Source: a bacterium
GTDB taxonomy: Bacteria > Armatimonadota > Zipacnadia > Zipacnadales > UBA11051
Length of the DNA: 64,000 nucleotides
Direction: 5' to 3'
Assembly (NCBI GenBank): GCA_021372615.1
Contig: JAJFUB010000092.1
Coordinates: 62,001-126,000 of the forward strand
Shown: in pieces, positions 50,759 to 58,342 of the stretch
How the letters are laid out: each line of letters opens with the position of its first letter
How positions within the stretch are numbered: the stretch's first letter is position 1
Translations under genes and position numbers: made by a program
The notes under the pieces: model-generated
The model's input: the letters and a program-made list of their open reading frames with translations, nothing else
Told to the model about the DNA's origin: nothing
Databases searched by the model: none

Positions 50759-52189
50759 CTACCGCGCTGTCGCACGCGCGGCGGCTTGCTTGTACAGCGA
50801 CAGGTACTGCTTCGCCGAAGCATCCCACGAGAAGTCCGAGGCGAAGGCGTTCTGCACCAGCCCGCTCCAGCGCTCCCGATCGCGATACGCCTCCAGGGCC
50901 CGCCCGATAGCTGCCATCATCTGCGCGGCATCGTACTCCTCGAACCGGAAGCCGTTCGGCGCACGGCCCTTCTCCTTGATGGTGTCGGCCAGGCCCCCGG
51001 TCACCCTGACAATCGGGAGGTTGCCGTACGCCAGCGCGATCATCTGCCCGAGGCCGCACGGCTCGTACCGCGAGGGCATCAGGAACATGTCACCCCCGGC
51101 GTACAGCAGCTTGGCGAGCTGGGCCGAGAACATCAGCTTGACGCCCACATTGCTGTTCCGGGCAGCCAGATCGCTGAAGAACTGCTCATAGTGCGGATCA
51201 CCGGTGCCCAGGATCGCCAACTGGACACCCTCCAGCCCGGAAGCGACGTTCTCCAGCAGGTCGAGGCCCTTCTGGGCGTCCAGGCGCGTCACCATCGTGA
51301 TCAACGGCACGTCGGGATTCACGGGCAAGCCGAACTCCTGCTGCGCCGCGGCCTTGCACACGGCCTTGCCGGCGAGGTCCGCGGCCGAGAAGTTCGCCGG
51401 CAGCGAGGCGTCGCCCGCCGGGTTCCATACGTCGTAGTCAATCCCGTTGACGATGCCCTTGAGGTCCTCGACCCGCGCCCGGGCCAGATCATCCACCCCG
51501 GCCCCGAACTCGGGGGTCCGGATCTCCCTGGCGTAACCCTTGCTGACAGCGTTGATGAGGTCGCAGTAGATGAAGCCCAGACGCGCCAGGTTGATCTGGC
51601 CGTCGTACAGCGCTCTCTCGACGCGCTTGTCGCCCAGATCGAGCCCGGCCTTGCTGATCTGGTCCCACGGGAAGGCGCCCTGGTAGCCGGGACCGAGGTT
51701 GTGGCCCGTGAACAGTGTGCCATAGGGCAGGTCCCACAGGCGCGTGTAGGCTGCCGCGAGGGTCGTGTGGTAGTCGTTGAGGTGTAGCACGTCCGGCTGC
51801 CACTCCAGGCCCTCCAGCGCCGCCAGCGAGGCCCGCGAGAAGAACGCCAGGCGCTCGAACTGGTCGCCGTAGCCCCCGCCGGTGCCGTAGATGGACTGCC
51901 GATCGAAATACAGGTTGTGCTCCACGAAGTACACGGGGACTTCCGTGCCGGGGATGAAGGCCTGCTCGATGGCGCAGCCGCTGGTGTAGGTCGGCATGGG
52001 TACATGCACGGGCTCGAGAACGCGCGTCAGCTCGAAGTCGCCCTGCAGCACCGAGCGGTGCTTGGGGGTGATGACGCGGATGTCCACCCCGCGCTGGGCG
52101 AGGGCCTTGGGCAGGCTCCCGGCGACATCCGCCAGCCCCCCCACCTTCGAGAACGGCGCCACTTCAAACGATATCATCAGTACTTTCAT
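50759..52189 (-). CDS. glgA: Glycogen synthase (ADP-glucose type, GT5)
   Basis: 476 residues. KVGGLADV near 16 binds ADP-glucose; HLNDYHTTLA, GTGDPHYEQ and the C-terminal EPCGLGQMIALAYG complete the GT5 pattern. It extends alpha-1,4-glucan chains. AAGGGA stands 8 nt before ATG 52189. It is 42 nt downstream of glgC, so the pair forms a compact glycogen-synthesis unit. No branching enzyme (glgB) is in the window. Confidence 0.95.
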   Translation of the reverse strand: MKVLMISFEVAPFSKVGGLADVAGSLPKALAQRGVDIRVITPKHRSVLQGDFELTRVLEPVHVPMPTYTSGCAIEQAFIPGTEVPVYFVEHNLYFDRQSIYGTGGGYGDQFERLAFFSRASLAALEGLEWQPDVLHLNDYHTTLAAAYTRLWDLPYGTLFTGHNLGPGYQGAFPWDQISKAGLDLGDKRVERALYDGQINLARLGFIYCDLINAVSKGYAREIRTPEFGAGVDDLARARVEDLKGIVNGIDYDVWNPAGDASLPANFSAADLAGKAVCKAAAQQEFGLPVNPDVPLITMVTRLDAQKGLDLLENVASGLEGVQLAILGTGDPHYEQFFSDLAARNSNVGVKLMFSAQLAKLLYAGGDMFLMPSRYEPCGLGQMIALAYGNLPIVRVTGGLADTIKEKGRAPNGFRFEEYDAAQMMAAIGRALEAYRDRERWSGLVQNAFASDFSWDASAKQYLSLYKQAAARATAR

Positions 52190-52231
52190 GGTGGAATCCC
52201 TTCGTAGACTCGCCCGGCGGAGTGCGGTTAC

Positions 52232-53464
52232 CTACCCCAACACCACGCGCCGGGGCACGACCGTGATGCCCGAGGTCACCACGAAGCGGCGCGCATCCAC
52301 TTCGGGGTCGTGGCCGATACGGAACCCGGGCGGGATGTGCACGCCCTCATCCACGATGACGCGGCTGAGCGAAGCGCCCTCGCCTACCGTCACGTCGTCC
52401 ATGAGGACGGACTCGGTCACCTCGGCGCCCGCATCCACGCGTACGCCGGGTGACAGCACGGAGCGGTTGACCGTGGCGCCGCTGATGATGCAGCCCCCGG
52501 TGAGCAGGCAGTCGCTCACGCTGGCCGGCCGCGAGCCCGCGCCGCAGACGACCTTGGCCGGCGGCAGCGGCGGCTTGTAGGTGTAGATCGGCCAGCGGTC
52601 GTCGTACAGGTCCAGCTCGGGCACGGGCGCTACGAGATCCATGTGCGCCTGCCAGTAGCTCTCCAAGGTCCCGATGTCCCGCCAGTAGGGGTTGGCGCTG
52701 CGAGCGGGATCGGCAAACTCGTACATGTACACCGCCCGCCCCTGCTGCACCGCCGTGGGGATGACGTCCCGACCGAAATCGTGGGTGTTCTTGGTGCGGG
52801 CGTCGGCAGACACAGCCTCGACGAGTGCCGGCGTCCGCCAGATGTAGACCCCCATGTTCGCCAGCGCCACCTCGGGACGGCCCGGCATCCCCGGCGGCTC
52901 CGCCGGTTTCTCCAGGAAGCCTACGACCCGCCCGGAGTCGTCTACATCCAGCACGCCCAACTGCCGCGCGCTCTCCCGCGGGACGGTCAGGGCGGCAATG
53001 GTCAGGTCCGCCCCCTGCTCCTCGTGATAGGCCAGCATGCCGCTGTAGTCCATCCGGTAAGCATGGTCGCCCGACAGCAGGACCACGACGGCGGGTCGCT
53101 CCTCCTGCAGGACGAACAGGTTCTGAAAGATGGCGTCGGCCGTCCCGGCGTACCAGCGATCCGCACCCAGACGCTGGGGCGGGACGAAGTCCACGAACTC
53201 GTCCAGGTCATCCGACAGGCGCGCCGACCAGGTGCGTCGCACATGGCGGGTCAGCGAGGTCGAGGCGTACTGGGTCAGCAGGTGGATGCGGCGCAGACCC
53301 GAGTTGATGCAGTTGCTGAGGGTGAAGTCAATCATCCGGTAGGTGCCGCCGAAGCGCACTCCCGGTTTGGCCCGCTGGCTGGTCAGTGGGTGCAGACGCT
53401 GGCCCTGGCCTCCGGCCAGCACCATCACTGTCACGCCCTGCGCGGCGCGGCCGCCGGCGGCCAC
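52232..53464 (-). CDS. glgC: Glucose-1-phosphate adenylyltransferase
   Basis: 410 residues. LAGGQGQRLHPLTSQRAKPGVRFGG is the nucleotide loop; SGDHAYRMDY is the metal/product region; FLEKPAEP is the sugar-phosphate-binding loop. A left-handed beta helix of hexapeptide repeats occupies the C-terminus. It makes ADP-glucose, the donor for GlgA, and is usually allosteric. Start GTG 53464, 3 nt after the response regulator stop, with GGAG 9 nt upstream; ATG 53425 is possible but would cut close to the nucleotide loop. Confidence 0.94.
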   Translation of the reverse strand: MAAGGRAAQGVTVMVLAGGQGQRLHPLTSQRAKPGVRFGGTYRMIDFTLSNCINSGLRRIHLLTQYASTSLTRHVRRTWSARLSDDLDEFVDFVPPQRLGADRWYAGTADAIFQNLFVLQEERPAVVVLLSGDHAYRMDYSGMLAYHEEQGADLTIAALTVPRESARQLGVLDVDDSGRVVGFLEKPAEPPGMPGRPEVALANMGVYIWRTPALVEAVSADARTKNTHDFGRDVIPTAVQQGRAVYMYEFADPARSANPYWRDIGTLESYWQAHMDLVAPVPELDLYDDRWPIYTYKPPLPPAKVVCGAGSRPASVSDCLLTGGCIISGATVNRSVLSPGVRVDAGAEVTESVLMDDVTVGEGASLSRVIVDEGVHIPPGFRIGHDPEVDARRFVVTSGITVVPRRVVLG

Positions 53465-53467
53465 CGG

Positions 53468-53869
53468 TCAGCGCTCCATTTCCGGAGGCGGAGCCGGCGC
53501 CTCGATGCCGCGCTTGGCCAGCACGCCCGCGATCGTCTCGTGTAGCTCGGCCAGGTCGTGCGACTTGATGACATAGGCCTCGGCCGCCCAGGTCATGAAG
53601 TCATCCTTGTAGCTCGAATAGGCCGTGTTGAGGATGACGGGCAGTTGGTTGTCGTAGTCCAGTATCTTGCCCAGGGCCTCGATGCCGTCCATGCCCGGCA
53701 TGGCGATGTCGAGGAGCACGGCGTCCACCTCGTGCTTCTGCAGCAGGTCGAGCCCCTCCTGGCCGCTCTTGGCCGCCACCACGTTGTAACCCATCCAGGA
53801 CAGATCGTCCTCGTAGAGCAGGCGCTGATTGTCGTCGTCCTCAATGACCAGCAGTGTCGGCTTCCCCAT
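53468..53869 (-). CDS. Single-domain (CheY-like) response regulator
   Basis: 133 residues, a receiver domain only. Acid pocket D11/D12, phospho-acceptor D54 (VLLDIAMPGMDG), switch Thr82 and Lys102 (YVIKSHD) are all present. Without an output domain, it must act by binding another protein or as a phosphorelay step. Its start overlaps the end of the kinase gene by 29 nt, so they are a cognate pair; glgC follows after 3 nt. ATG 53869 has AAGGGG 8 nt upstream. Confidence 0.92.
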   Translation of the reverse strand: MGKPTLLVIEDDDNQRLLYEDDLSWMGYNVVAAKSGQEGLDLLQKHEVDAVLLDIAMPGMDGIEALGKILDYDNQLPVILNTAYSSYKDDFMTWAAEAYVIKSHDLAELHETIAGVLAKRGIEAPAPPPEMER

Positions 53870-55787
53870 GCACACGACCCCTTTCGTGTAGCTTCGGCCG
53901 GACGGCTTCCGGCTCCAGCGGCGGCGGTACGACCTGATCGAGGTGGAACACGATCGTGAACGTGGTCCCCTCGCCCTCAGTGCTGGCGACCTCCACGGTG
54001 GCGCCGTGGTCCTCGATCACCTTGCGGGCCAGCGCCAGCCCCAGCCCGGTGCCGGTCGTCTTGGTGGTGAAGAAGGTGTCGAAGATCTGATCCTGGTGGG
54101 CGACGGGTATGCCCTGGCCTGTGTCGGCCACGGCGAGCTTGACGACGTTCCCCTCGCGCCAGGCGTGCAGGCTCAGCAGCCCGCCCTCCGGCATCGCGTC
54201 AAGGGCGTTGAGGGCCAGGTTGGTGACAACCTGCTGCATCTGGCGGCAGTCCAGGGGCAGGAGCGGGAGGTCAGGCGCGACCCTCACCGCGATCCGCACG
54301 CCCTGCTTCTCCGCCCGTGGCTGCACCATCTGCACGCTCGGCCCCAGCACGGCCTCCAAGGAGCACTGGGCGAACTGCGGCCGCGAGGGCTTGCTGAAGT
54401 CCAGCAGAGAGCCCAGGATGTCCTCCAGCTTCGCGACTTCCTCCACGATGATACGCGCGTTGCGCTCCACGATCTGGACATCGCCCGCCCGGCGCAGGAG
54501 CATCTTGGCGAACCCGCCGATGGTAGACAGCGGGTTGCGGATTTCGTGCGCAACGATCGCCGTCAACTCGCCGATAGCCGCCAGGGCCTGAGAGCGTACC
54601 AGGCGCTCCGTGGCCTCTTCCAGCTTGCGGTAAGCTTCCTCCAGCTCGTTGGCGCGGCGCAGTTCGGCGGCGTACAGCCGGGCGCTGTCAATGGCCAGCG
54701 CCGCGTGGTTGGCCAGACCGGTCAGCAGTTGCACATCGGTCTGGTTGATGCGCTGCCCGGTGACGCTGTTGTCGGCGATGGCGACGCCGATGACCTTGTC
54801 CTGCACCACCAGCGGCGCCACCACAAACTCTTCGGCCGCCAGTGCGCCCAACAACTCCGGCGGGACGCGCGGGTCATTGGGGGCATCGAGCACGTGCACC
54901 GTCTCGCGCGTCGCCGCGGCCAGCATCGGTAGCGCTGCGGTATCGCTCAGCGGGAACGACAGCTGCTGGACGAGGTCCCGGAGCGGACGCTCCTCGGGCG
55001 GGGGCAGGCGGTCGAACGCGCTCAGGAAGTCCGCCAGCGTACGCCCCCCCGACAGCTCCGACCAGATCTGGTTGGCCTGAGCCGGGTTCTCGGGCCCCAC
55101 CGCCATCTCCGCCTTCAGCACCCCGTCCTCCTCATCGGCCAGCAGCAGGATGGCGCGGTTGAACCCCAGGCCGATGGCGCCACCGGCCGTGATGCCGGTC
55201 AGGATGGCGTGGAGCAGCCGGGGCAGATCGTGCATCCCCAGCATCGCCTGCACGATCTGGTGCAGGATCGAGCGCTCGTAGAGCTGCCGGTGGCGTTCGG
55301 TGACGTCCTCAATGGTGATGAGCAGGTTCCGTTCACCGCGGGCCCCGACGCAAGGGTCCAGACCGATATTGAGGATGCGTTCGGAGTGGTCCTCCGTCGC
55401 CTGTCGGAAGCCGGCCCAGCGCACCCGATCGCCCGTGGCCAGCGTGTTCTGCATGGCCTGCCGCAGCCCGGCCTCCTCCAGCAGGCTGTGGGGGAACACT
55501 TCGGAGATGTGCTGCCCCTCGGCCTGCTCCCGCGACAAGCGGCGCTGGCGCAGGTAGGCGCTGTTGGCGTGCAGGACGATCAGGTTCTCGTCGAGCACAA
55601 GCAGGCGCGTCTGCAGGGCATTGATGACGTTCGCCAGGAACGCCTGCAGATTCTCGACCTCGTCCAGGCGCGCGGTCAGCTGCACCTGCAGTTGGTCGGC
55701 GCGACGCCCATCGCGAGTGTCTGCCGCCACGCAGCCGCCGTTCACCTGTTCCGTGGTGGCGTCCTGGGTGTGTTCGTCAGGGTCCAT
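53841..55787 (-). CDS. Soluble PAS-GAF sensor histidine kinase
   Basis: 648 residues, no transmembrane segment, so cytosolic. A helical N-terminus (about 30-60) precedes a PAS domain (LVLDENLIVLHANSAYL with a PAC-like LLITIEDVTERH), a GAF domain (LGFNRAILLLADEEDG to GVAIADNSVTGQRINQTDVQLL), a helical linker, HisKA with the phospho-His in IVAHEIRNPLSTIGG near 416, and HATPase_c with NLALNALDAM (N box), DTGQGIP (G1) and TTGTGLGLAL. The signal is likely small, redox or metabolic. It sits between galT (25 nt upstream) and its response regulator. ATG 55787 is preferred to a TTG 9 nt upstream. Confidence 0.92.
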   Translation of the reverse strand: MDPDEHTQDATTEQVNGGCVAADTRDGRRADQLQVQLTARLDEVENLQAFLANVINALQTRLLVLDENLIVLHANSAYLRQRRLSREQAEGQHISEVFPHSLLEEAGLRQAMQNTLATGDRVRWAGFRQATEDHSERILNIGLDPCVGARGERNLLITIEDVTERHRQLYERSILHQIVQAMLGMHDLPRLLHAILTGITAGGAIGLGFNRAILLLADEEDGVLKAEMAVGPENPAQANQIWSELSGGRTLADFLSAFDRLPPPEERPLRDLVQQLSFPLSDTAALPMLAAATRETVHVLDAPNDPRVPPELLGALAAEEFVVAPLVVQDKVIGVAIADNSVTGQRINQTDVQLLTGLANHAALAIDSARLYAAELRRANELEEAYRKLEEATERLVRSQALAAIGELTAIVAHEIRNPLSTIGGFAKMLLRRAGDVQIVERNARIIVEEVAKLEDILGSLLDFSKPSRPQFAQCSLEAVLGPSVQMVQPRAEKQGVRIAVRVAPDLPLLPLDCRQMQQVVTNLALNALDAMPEGGLLSLHAWREGNVVKLAVADTGQGIPVAHQDQIFDTFFTTKTTGTGLGLALARKVIEDHGATVEVASTEGEGTTFTIVFHLDQVVPPPLEPEAVRPKLHERGRVHGEADTAGH

Positions 55788-55812
55788 GGGCCACAATCCC
55801 GGGCGGGTCGTC

Positions 55813-56886
55813 CTACGCCGACGCCGCCTTGCTTTCTTCCTCGACCTCGCCCCGCAGGAACATCGTCGCCCGCTCCGGTGACACGGGGTTGATGTAGAAG
55901 CCCGTGCCCCATTCGAAGCCCGCGGTCTTGGTCAGCCGTGGCATCAACTCGACATGCCAGTGGTAGTGCAGGTCAACCATACCCCAGTACTCCGGATGCC
56001 CGGGGCAGGCCGAGACACTGGGCGCGGTCTGTAGCATCATGTTGTACGCCGGGTCCTGTAGCACGTTGCGATAGCGCATCAGGGCGTCCTTCATGATGCA
56101 CGCGAAGTTGTACTGCTCGGACTCCGTCATCATCGCGTAGTCGTGCATGTGGCGCCGGGGTAGCACGAGTAGCTCAAACGGCGACCGCGAGGCGAAGGGC
56201 GACACCACGACGAAGTCCTCGTTCTCGGACACGAGCCGGTCCGGGATCGTCGTCTCCTGCTCCACCAGGTCGCAGAAGATGCAGCGTTGCTTGTGCTCGT
56301 AGTGGCGCTGGGCCGCGCTCAGCTTCTCCTTGACCAGCAGGGGCACGATCGGCAGGGCGATGAGCTGCGTGTGCGGGTGGGCCAGCGAGGCCCCCGCCGC
56401 CGAGCCGTAGTTGCGGAAGACGATCAGATGATGAAAGCGCTTGTCCTGGCGCAAGTCCACCAGCCGCTCACGGTACACGCCGAAGACACTGTTGATGTGA
56501 TCTACCGAAGCCAGCGCCAGGTCTTCCTCATGGTGCGGGGTCTCGATGATGACCTCGTGGGCGCCGAAGCCCCCCATCCGGTCCAGCAAGCCGATGCCCG
56601 AGCGCCGCAGGCTGGCCTCGATGGTCAGGGCCGGGAACTTGTTCTGCACGACGCGCACTTCCCACCCGGGCGCGTTGGCCCCGGTGCCGCAGTCGCGGAC
56701 GGCATAGATCTCCGGTGGGGTCTTGGCCTCATTCCCCCCGCAGAACGGGCAGCCGGCCGACTTGTTCGGCTCGGGAGCGGAGGTGAAATCCGTGGGGCGC
56801 TTGCCCCGCGAGGCGGCAATGATCACCCAGCGGTCCAGCACCGGGTCTTTACGGAGTTCAGAAGCGTCATCCAGGGGGTTGCTCAT
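55813..56886 (-). CDS. galT: Galactose-1-phosphate uridylyltransferase
   Basis: 357 residues. CPFCGGNE holds two zinc Cys; GASLAHPHTQ is a family segment; HWHVELMPRL supplies the HxH nucleophile region with catalytic His near 311. It swaps UMP between UDP-glucose and galactose-1-phosphate in the Leloir pathway, or acts on related sugar-1-phosphates. ATG at 56886 gives the natural MSNPLDDASELRKDPV start. The Shine-Dalgarno (AAAGGAGGT) is 27 nt away, with a hairpin between. It is the first gene of the run that leads to the sensor kinase and glycogen genes. Confidence 0.93.
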   Translation of the reverse strand: MSNPLDDASELRKDPVLDRWVIIAASRGKRPTDFTSAPEPNKSAGCPFCGGNEAKTPPEIYAVRDCGTGANAPGWEVRVVQNKFPALTIEASLRRSGIGLLDRMGGFGAHEVIIETPHHEEDLALASVDHINSVFGVYRERLVDLRQDKRFHHLIVFRNYGSAAGASLAHPHTQLIALPIVPLLVKEKLSAAQRHYEHKQRCIFCDLVEQETTIPDRLVSENEDFVVVSPFASRSPFELLVLPRRHMHDYAMMTESEQYNFACIMKDALMRYRNVLQDPAYNMMLQTAPSVSACPGHPEYWGMVDLHYHWHVELMPRLTKTAGFEWGTGFYINPVSPERATMFLRGEVEEESKAASA

Positions 56887-56922
56887 GGGATGTGGCCCGG
56901 CAGGGCCACACACCTCCTTTCA
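56887..56922 (-). promoter_or_regulatory. Shine-Dalgarno separated from the galT start by a hairpin
   Basis: On the minus strand AAAGGAGGT (56922-56914) is followed by GT, then a perfect 7-bp hairpin (GTGGCCC TGCC GGGCCAC, 56911-56894), ATCCC and the ATG. With the hairpin folded, the spacing is about 7 nt; unfolded it is 27 nt. A GTG at 56913 in frame sits directly on the Shine-Dalgarno and is unlikely as start. Confidence 0.65.
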
Positions 56923-56987
56923 GCCGACAGGCCGCCCGTCCCGCAGCGTGACGGATGGCTGCGGCCGACGGCCTCGTCCCCATGGTT

Positions 56988-57017
56988 AGTTTAGCAGACC
57001 GCCGGAGGCGTCGGCAA
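56988..57017 (-). promoter_or_regulatory. Probable galT promoter
   Basis: On the minus strand TTGCCG (57017-57012) and TAAACT (56993-56988) are 18 bp apart. A start near 56981 would give a leader of about 95 nt containing the hairpin-bridged ribosome site. Confidence 0.45.
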
Positions 57018-57106
57018 GGTGAATGGCGGGAGTCACCCAGTCCTGTGCCAGCGACGGCCTCCCCGGCGCACAAGGTCTCGCTGTCGGGCCGCGCGAAATG
57101 GCGGGC

Positions 57107-58342
57107 ATGTACCGGGTATATCCTCCCCATGTCTATGTCACCGAATGGGCGCTGCGCGACGAGCGCGCTCAGCCCCGCCTGCGTCGCCTTGCGGCCGCCT
57201 TCGGGCAGCCTGACCCGCCGATCCTGACGGCCGCCGAGCTGGCCGAGACCTGTCGGGAGCGCGGCTGGCTCGACGAGCGACGCAACCGCACCGGGGCCGT
57301 CCGCACGCCGGCCGACCCGGATATCGTGCTCAACGCCTTCACACTCGACGACGCCGAGCTGCAGGACCGCCTGGCCCGTTACCCGGACCTGCGCCAGTGG
57401 TTCCTGGGCGGAGGGGGCATCATCGGGACGCGCGACAGCCGCAACCACCTGCGCGGGATGAATGGTGTCTGCCAGACCGCGCTGGAGCTGCACTGCGCCT
57501 ACGGCTGCCTCCACGCCTGCGACTACTGCCACGTCGGCAGTTGCCTGAACATCATGACCAACCTGGAGAGCATGGCCGAGCGTTTCCAAGCGGCCATTGC
57601 CGAGAACCGTTGGTGCCGGCTGTGGAAGTTCGACAACACGACTGACACCATCGCCCTGGAGCCCGAGTACGGCGCTTCGGAGACCATGGTCAGCCTCTTT
57701 GCCCAGCAGCGCGACGCGTTCTTGCTGCTGTACACCAAGAGCAACAACGTGGACCATCTGCTGGACCTCGACCACCGGGGGCAGACCCTCGTAAGCTGGT
57801 CCCTGGCCAGCGACACGCCCAGCCGGCTGATCGAGAGGAAGACGCCGCCCATGCGGGCGCGCATCGGGGCGATGCACAAGTGCCAGGAGGCGGGCTACGG
57901 GGTGCGGGTCCGCCTCTCCCCCATCTGCCCGGTAGTGAACTGGCGCGGCGAGGTCACGGAGATGCTCGAGGCGCTCTTCGCGCAGGTCTGCCCGCAGGTC
58001 ATCTCGATGGACGTGCTGGGGTGGATGAACGCCCGGCAGATGCGTGAGGCGCTCGACATTGAGCTGCTGGACCCCCTCTACTGCGACTTCGTCATCCAGC
58101 AGTCCGAGCTTTCGCCGGGCGTCCACACCAAGCACTTGTTCAGCCACGACATGCGGCTGACGATCTTCCGCCACGTCCTGGGCGAGATCCGCCGCCTGCA
58201 GCCGGAGACGCCGGTGTCGCTATGCATGGAGACTAGGGAGATGTGGCGGGAGCTGGGCCCGGACCTCGGTATGACCCCGGGGAACTACGTCTGCTGCTGC
58301 GGCCCGACCAGCGTGCCGGGGCACAGGCTGCTGCAGGTGTAG
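57107..58342 (+). CDS. Radical SAM protein, spore photoproduct lyase-like
   Basis: About 411 residues. The radical SAM motif CLHACDYC (C134, C138, C141, CX3CX2C) lies in HCAYGCLHACDYCHVG, as in spore photoproduct lyase homologues; WKFDNTTDTIAL, SWSLASDTPSRLIERKTPPM and LSPICPVVNWRGE match the barrel strands. The C-terminus has three consecutive Cys (C396-398 in NYVCCCGP). True SPL repairs spore photoproduct in DNA; the lineage here shows no sporulation gene in this window, so repair in dormant cells or another substrate is possible. The start is uncertain between ATG 57107, chosen because it begins the conserved part, and ATG 57098; neither has a strong Shine-Dalgarno. Confidence 0.78.
   Translation: MYRVYPPHVYVTEWALRDERAQPRLRRLAAAFGQPDPPILTAAELAETCRERGWLDERRNRTGAVRTPADPDIVLNAFTLDDAELQDRLARYPDLRQWFLGGGGIIGTRDSRNHLRGMNGVCQTALELHCAYGCLHACDYCHVGSCLNIMTNLESMAERFQAAIAENRWCRLWKFDNTTDTIALEPEYGASETMVSLFAQQRDAFLLLYTKSNNVDHLLDLDHRGQTLVSWSLASDTPSRLIERKTPPMRARIGAMHKCQEAGYGVRVRLSPICPVVNWRGEVTEMLEALFAQVCPQVISMDVLGWMNARQMREALDIELLDPLYCDFVIQQSELSPGVHTKHLFSHDMRLTIFRHVLGEIRRLQPETPVSLCMETREMWRELGPDLGMTPGNYVCCCGPTSVPGHRLLQV

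Follow-up and report, generated by a model that had tools for sequence, protein, structure and literature searches.

A candidate hairpin-bridged ribosome binding site ahead of galT in an Armatimonadota genome

Introduction

The best documented natural cases that we found of a hairpin lying between a Shine-Dalgarno (SD) sequence and its start codon are two genes of phage T4, according to the available portion of PMC3014915. RNA structure is described there as shortening the SD-to-AUG distance from 22 to 5 nt in gene 38 and from 27 to 11 nt in gene 25, with mutational support for both genes, to which gene 25 adds reporter assays and DMS probing. The gene 25 arrangement is given in the same portion as confined to close T-even phages, more distant relatives being without it. 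In Escherichia coli, the thrS leader carries a long hairpin that is accommodated by the ribosome and not unfolded, as the accessible text of PMC3936740 has it. The optimal SD distance in E. coli is stated to be 4 to 9 nt and can be quite longer (PMC4611024, in the part available), which counts against a need for bridging. When 58 mispredicted E. coli genes were folded, many of them without a canonical site, no convincing site created by a fold was reported in the available section of PMC1805508. A further paper citing the T4 work (PMC6099782) concerns, in the text available, a promoter hairpin and was set aside. In the open-licence literature we recognised no bacterial chromosomal gene described as having a hairpin-bridged SD, and found nothing on SD-dependent or leaderless initiation in Armatimonadetes.

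Here we describe the galT leader in a 64,000-nt stretch of an Armatimonadota genome (the window; coordinates are window positions unless another locus is named). As in T4 genes 25 and 38, so far as the available text describes them, the galT SD lies far from the AUG (22 to 27 nt in T4), and an intervening RNA structure is predicted to restore the spacing. Unlike those phage genes, galT is a bacterial chromosomal gene known from sequence alone, and its sister-genus counterpart has a much shorter stem. From what the thrS source gives, thrS resembles our model of galT in having an accommodated hairpin at a split ribosome binding site, but its hairpin (domain 2, removed in the deletion of -14 to -48) is situated further upstream, by an essential single-stranded region, whereas that of galT falls between SD and AUG. 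We consider hairpin-bridged initiation at a split ('accommodated') ribosome binding site of the T4 25/38 type to be the likeliest reading of the galT leader, with about an even chance of being correct.

Results

The galT gene (galactose-1-phosphate uridylyltransferase; Pfam PF01087 and PF02744) occupies 55813 to 56886 on the minus strand, with its ATG at 56886-56884. A first-pass annotation of the window had put galT at the head of a run with kinase and glycogen genes, in agreement with the order galT, histidine kinase, response regulator, glgC-like and glgA-like, all on the minus strand (the last four at 50759 to 55796; the response regulator and the glgA-like gene were named by reading translations and not by family search). 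Each of the five genes has a match in the sister genus, with order and orientation kept. Comparisons between the genera rest on one genome each (G000, this genome; G001, the sister-genus genome, 69% identical). This genome also encodes a second, distant galT-like gene (L014; G000:C109:45305-46294) with 28% identity. No intrinsic terminator or consensus sigma-70 promoter was found in 56860 to 57200, and an Rfam search of 56700 to 57150 returned no known leader or riboswitch at the gathering score. A sub-threshold match to RF01521 (CC1840 sRNA) at 56887-56976 on the minus strand (25.2 bits vs a gathering score of 50; E 0.24) is probably due to chance.

The galT SD, AAAGGAGGT, lies at 56912 to 56920 on the minus strand, with an in-frame TGA (56922-56920) ahead of it. 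It had been placed 27 nt from the ATG; the long gap is real, but it measures 25 nt from the last T of AAAGGAGGT and 26 nt from GGAGG, and 27 nt is instead the distance between two in-frame candidate starts, GTG 56913 and ATG 56886. We rejected the former (56911 to 56913, minus strand), which overlaps the SD and is without a counterpart in the sister genus. There, the galT ATG is the first possible start, preceded at a distance of 23 nt by the SD AGGAGAGGAG. Because the sister genus has no in-frame ATG, GTG or TTG between this ATG and the upstream stop, ATG 56886 is very probably the galT start in our genome too, as the first-pass annotation had assumed. On reading the sequences, no near-cognate in-frame starts were found inside the insert between SD and ATG in either genus. 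At 25 nt, the galT SD spacing exceeds the usual range, with no alternative start on offer.

The 25-nt insert (56911-56887, minus strand) contains a predicted hairpin, GTGTGGCCC-TGCC-GGGCCACAT (56890 to 56911), followed by a CCC spacer (56887 to 56889) that runs up to the ATG. The stem comprises a 7-bp core, 8 bp with a U-A pair (56910-56891) or 9 bp with a terminal G-U, and its folding would leave a residual SD-to-ATG gap of 7, 5 or 3 nt, respectively. The 18-nt, 7-bp hairpin of the first-pass annotation is therefore present, with a stem one to two pairs longer than claimed, and the proposed shortening of the gap to about 7 nt is what the 7-bp form predicts (3-5 nt with the longer stem). The hairpin is predicted to be folded in all five sequence contexts used, with a mean pair probability of 0.92-0.96, and the predicted structure of 7-9 bp between SD and AUG would restore a usable spacing.

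Both the SD and the hairpin seen at galT are rare. The insert folds at -16.5 kcal/mol, a value reached by 4 of 2000 dinucleotide shuffles (0 of 200 in a smaller run), and 1 of 2000 mononucleotide shuffles folds as well; the 46-nt piece including SD and start is less exceptional, being equalled by 7 of 200 shuffles. We called 1234 genes in 1.86 Mb of the 6.41-Mb genome with a simple in-house caller, and the 25 nt before the ATG fold as strongly in two of the 1158 called ATG-start genes, galT and one in L213, which has no clear SD ahead and may have a mispredicted start. Exact AAAGGAGGT occurs twice in the 1.86 Mb, the other copy being at ordinary spacing before a start. GGAGG and AGGAG peak sharply 4-11 nt before the ATG (64 and 47 genes per position vs a background of about 5), indicating that the SD is normally used in this genome. 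Two patterns for the 16S 3' end, as a source of the anti-SD, had no match in the assembly.

With the hairpin left free to form, exposing the galT SD and start region is predicted to cost 7.7 kcal/mol, as opposed to 26.4 kcal/mol if the insert is melted too (ViennaRNA), which suggests that either the hairpin is accommodated by the ribosome or translation of galT is poor. That the SD is retained at a long gap favours accommodation. The fold could also be inhibitory or regulatory, since the galT SD is predicted to be unpaired with a probability of only 0.30-0.60 (0.25-0.41 for the methyltransferase gene of this genome described below). The stem, together with pairing between SD and UCC, would then hide the SD and lower galT translation unless opened by temperature, a protein or translation itself. 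In line with this, the lowest-energy fold of the 46-nt piece pairs GGA of the SD with UCC downstream of the hairpin, where the CCC spacer and the U preceding it can pair weakly with the SD, and the motif CATCCC is common to the galT leaders of both genera. However, these additional SD pairs are few and weak, the centroid structure leaves the SD open, opening it costs 3.8 kcal/mol, and inhibition by itself offers no explanation for an SD kept at 23-28 nt and not beside the start; we regard it as unlikely.

Conservation in the one close relative available is mixed: its galT also has a strong SD at a long gap, and the stem is down to 4 bp. Between SD and ATG the two galT leaders can be aligned well, the sister sequence being without four letters of the 3' arm, which leaves UGGC/GCCA as its stem. 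This hairpin does not exceed chance (it is equalled by 184 of 2000 shuffles), its pair probability ranges from 0.01 to 0.80 by context, and another fold wins in two of five contexts. The first-pass annotation had looked to relatives for a stem kept by compensatory changes; in this one relative the long galT stem is not kept and no such change is seen, which is the main result against its mechanism.

To place the arrangement within the order, galT matches were obtained in 38 of 41 genomes and loci were cut for the best 30 of the 38, one per genome; one (L065) was dropped for want of the anchor motif, leaving 29, in which the nearest in-frame start codon was taken. An SD-like word (GGAG, AGGA or GAGG) ends 3-13 nt before the start in 25 of these 29 loci. 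The four exceptions are this genome, the sister genus, L070 and L071. Five-letter SD words end 26-27 nt before the galT start in this genome and 23-28 nt before it in the sister genus, and a strong displaced SD (23-28 nt) is found only in these two among the 29 loci, so the split galT site looks like a derived state common to the two genera and retained by them. The start lies three codons before a conserved LR in 26 of the 27 other loci, seven codons earlier than in those 26 in both this genome and the sister genus, and twelve earlier in L071. This seven-codon extension of galT (window 56857-56886, minus strand) may have displaced the start from its SD.

A different account is an SD-independent start at the ATG, in which an insertion would have moved the start away from an old SD, now vestigial or helpful only as a docking (standby) site, and the hairpin would be incidental. 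Many genes here do without an SD at normal gap (322 of 553 have one; the fraction among members of ortholog pairs is 0.43 in this genome and 0.50 in the sister genus), as do L070 and L071, which have no SD-like word at 3-13 nt. We nonetheless find this account distinctly unlikely, as both genera keep strong SDs that differ in their letters (AAAGGAGGT vs AGGAGAGGAG), and a -16.5 kcal/mol hairpin within the ribosome footprint would be expected to hinder an ordinary start.

Two further readings concern the insert itself. The SD might serve a short leader ORF, with galT translated by coupling: an 8-codon frame, GTG GCC CTG CCG GGC CAC ATC CCA TGA, spans 56883 to 56909 on the minus strand, the sister leader has one of 9 codons (TTG...TAA), and the first bases of the two stop codons fall at +1 and +5 of the respective galT ATG, the former stop overlapping it. 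This is very unlikely given that the GTG and TTG lie only 2 and 1 nt from the SD end, that the peptides (VALPGHIP and LAKQPSRYE) are unlike and the frames differ, and that neither insert of the methyltransferase pair contains an ATG, GTG or TTG. Alternatively, the galT palindrome, whose perfect 8-bp arms form a 20-bp inverted repeat within a short leader, might be a DNA operator for a transcription regulator, a most improbable reading in that the sister genus does not retain the repeat and the sole other exact GTGGCCCNNNNGGGCCAC in the genome sits inside open reading frames. With that single additional copy genome-wide, we also rejected the palindrome as a dispersed repeat.

Scanning the called genes for the order SD, hairpin, start returned 23 of 1234 genes in this genome and 5 of 515 in the sister genus. 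In 11 of the 23, more than 60 nt separate the candidate codon from the coding-potential boundary; close inspection covered three of the 23 (galT, the gene in L096 and an ATP-sulfurylase gene). Hits in this genome numbered 18 for GGAGG and 10 for AGGAG, while 13 further G/A five-mers gave 1-10 and five additional control words 14-34; in the sister genus the corresponding figures were 3 and 2 vs 0-5 and 1-9. There is accordingly no clear enrichment over control words in either genome, and SDs at a long gap (16-35 nt) are likewise not enriched in this genome, at about 4-6 per position, which equals background. The arrangement is therefore not a genome-wide habit. Among ortholog pairs in which the gene of this genome has only a long-gap SD close to the aligned start, the two with strong hairpins keep the gap in the sister genus, whereas four with weak folds (-0.8 to -6.5 kcal/mol) lose the long-gap SD, in both cases on small numbers; one further long-gap pair was set aside as its codon lies 60 nt inside.

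The ATP-sulfurylase gene (PF01747) was rejected as a split site on account of its own normal SD, a GGAGG 8 nt upstream of the probable ATG 43552. Its leader contains an inverted repeat whose 11-bp arms match perfectly, AACTGCACTCA-CCTG-TGAGTGCAGTT (43615-43590, minus strand), 37 nt before that ATG, possibly an operator or attenuator.

The gene in L096 encodes an RsmC-like methyltransferase (family hit PF05175; 'RsmC-like' is our own reading) and appears to be built like galT. At L096:18737-18775, GGAGGT is followed by an 8-bp hairpin and ATG 18773, with a gap of 30 nt. Its sister-genus ortholog (L141, minus strand, ATG 2847; 61% identity) has GGAGGT 20 nt from the ATG, which is the first start because an in-frame TAG follows the SD. 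A long-gap SD with no normal SD occurs in both genomes in 3 of 120 reciprocal-best pairs, at the aligned ATG for galT and the methyltransferase and, for the third, at a GTG lying 60 nt into the alignment. Given a GGAGGT frequency of about 4 per 10,000 upstream positions, the chance of any such pair among the 120 is, by our own arithmetic, roughly 0.01.

In an ungapped alignment of the two methyltransferase leaders, three of the eight stem pairs are changed on both sides, three are unchanged and two are broken; this degree of pairing is matched by 29 of 500 shuffles and this degree of covariation by 57 of 500. Shuffles also equal the individual hairpins often (226 of 2000 in this genome, 369 of 2000 in the sister genus), the stem is rarely formed in context in the sister genus (0.05-0.24), and in this genome its pairing extends in part into the end of the SD. 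The methyltransferase gene supports a shared architecture to a moderate degree and is just as compatible with the inhibitory reading.

Discussion

In the model that we favour for galT, the 30S subunit would pair with AAAGGAGGT without unfolding the hairpin, and the effective SD-to-ATG spacing would thereby fall from 25 nt to about 3-7 nt. The hairpin would have to form in the cell and be accommodated by the ribosome, and translation of galT, perhaps also of the run behind it, would then depend on the fold. The history of the split site in the two sister genera resembles that of T4 gene 25, as far as the latter is recounted in the available part of its description (PMC3014915).

More tentatively, and with doubt outweighing confidence, hairpin-bridged SDs may be a recurring, lineage-specific mode of initiation for chromosomal genes in this Armatimonadota family, in which at least galT and the RsmC-like gene would have acquired the arrangement before the genera split, their stems drifting thereafter while the gap was kept. 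Gene finders and SD models presuppose a short, linear gap between SD and start. If the model is true, galT would be a chromosomal case of the split site already known from T4. Such a case, joined by another candidate gene and traceable to a point of origin on the tree, would provide an outside test of whether the ribosome tolerates structure between SD and start.
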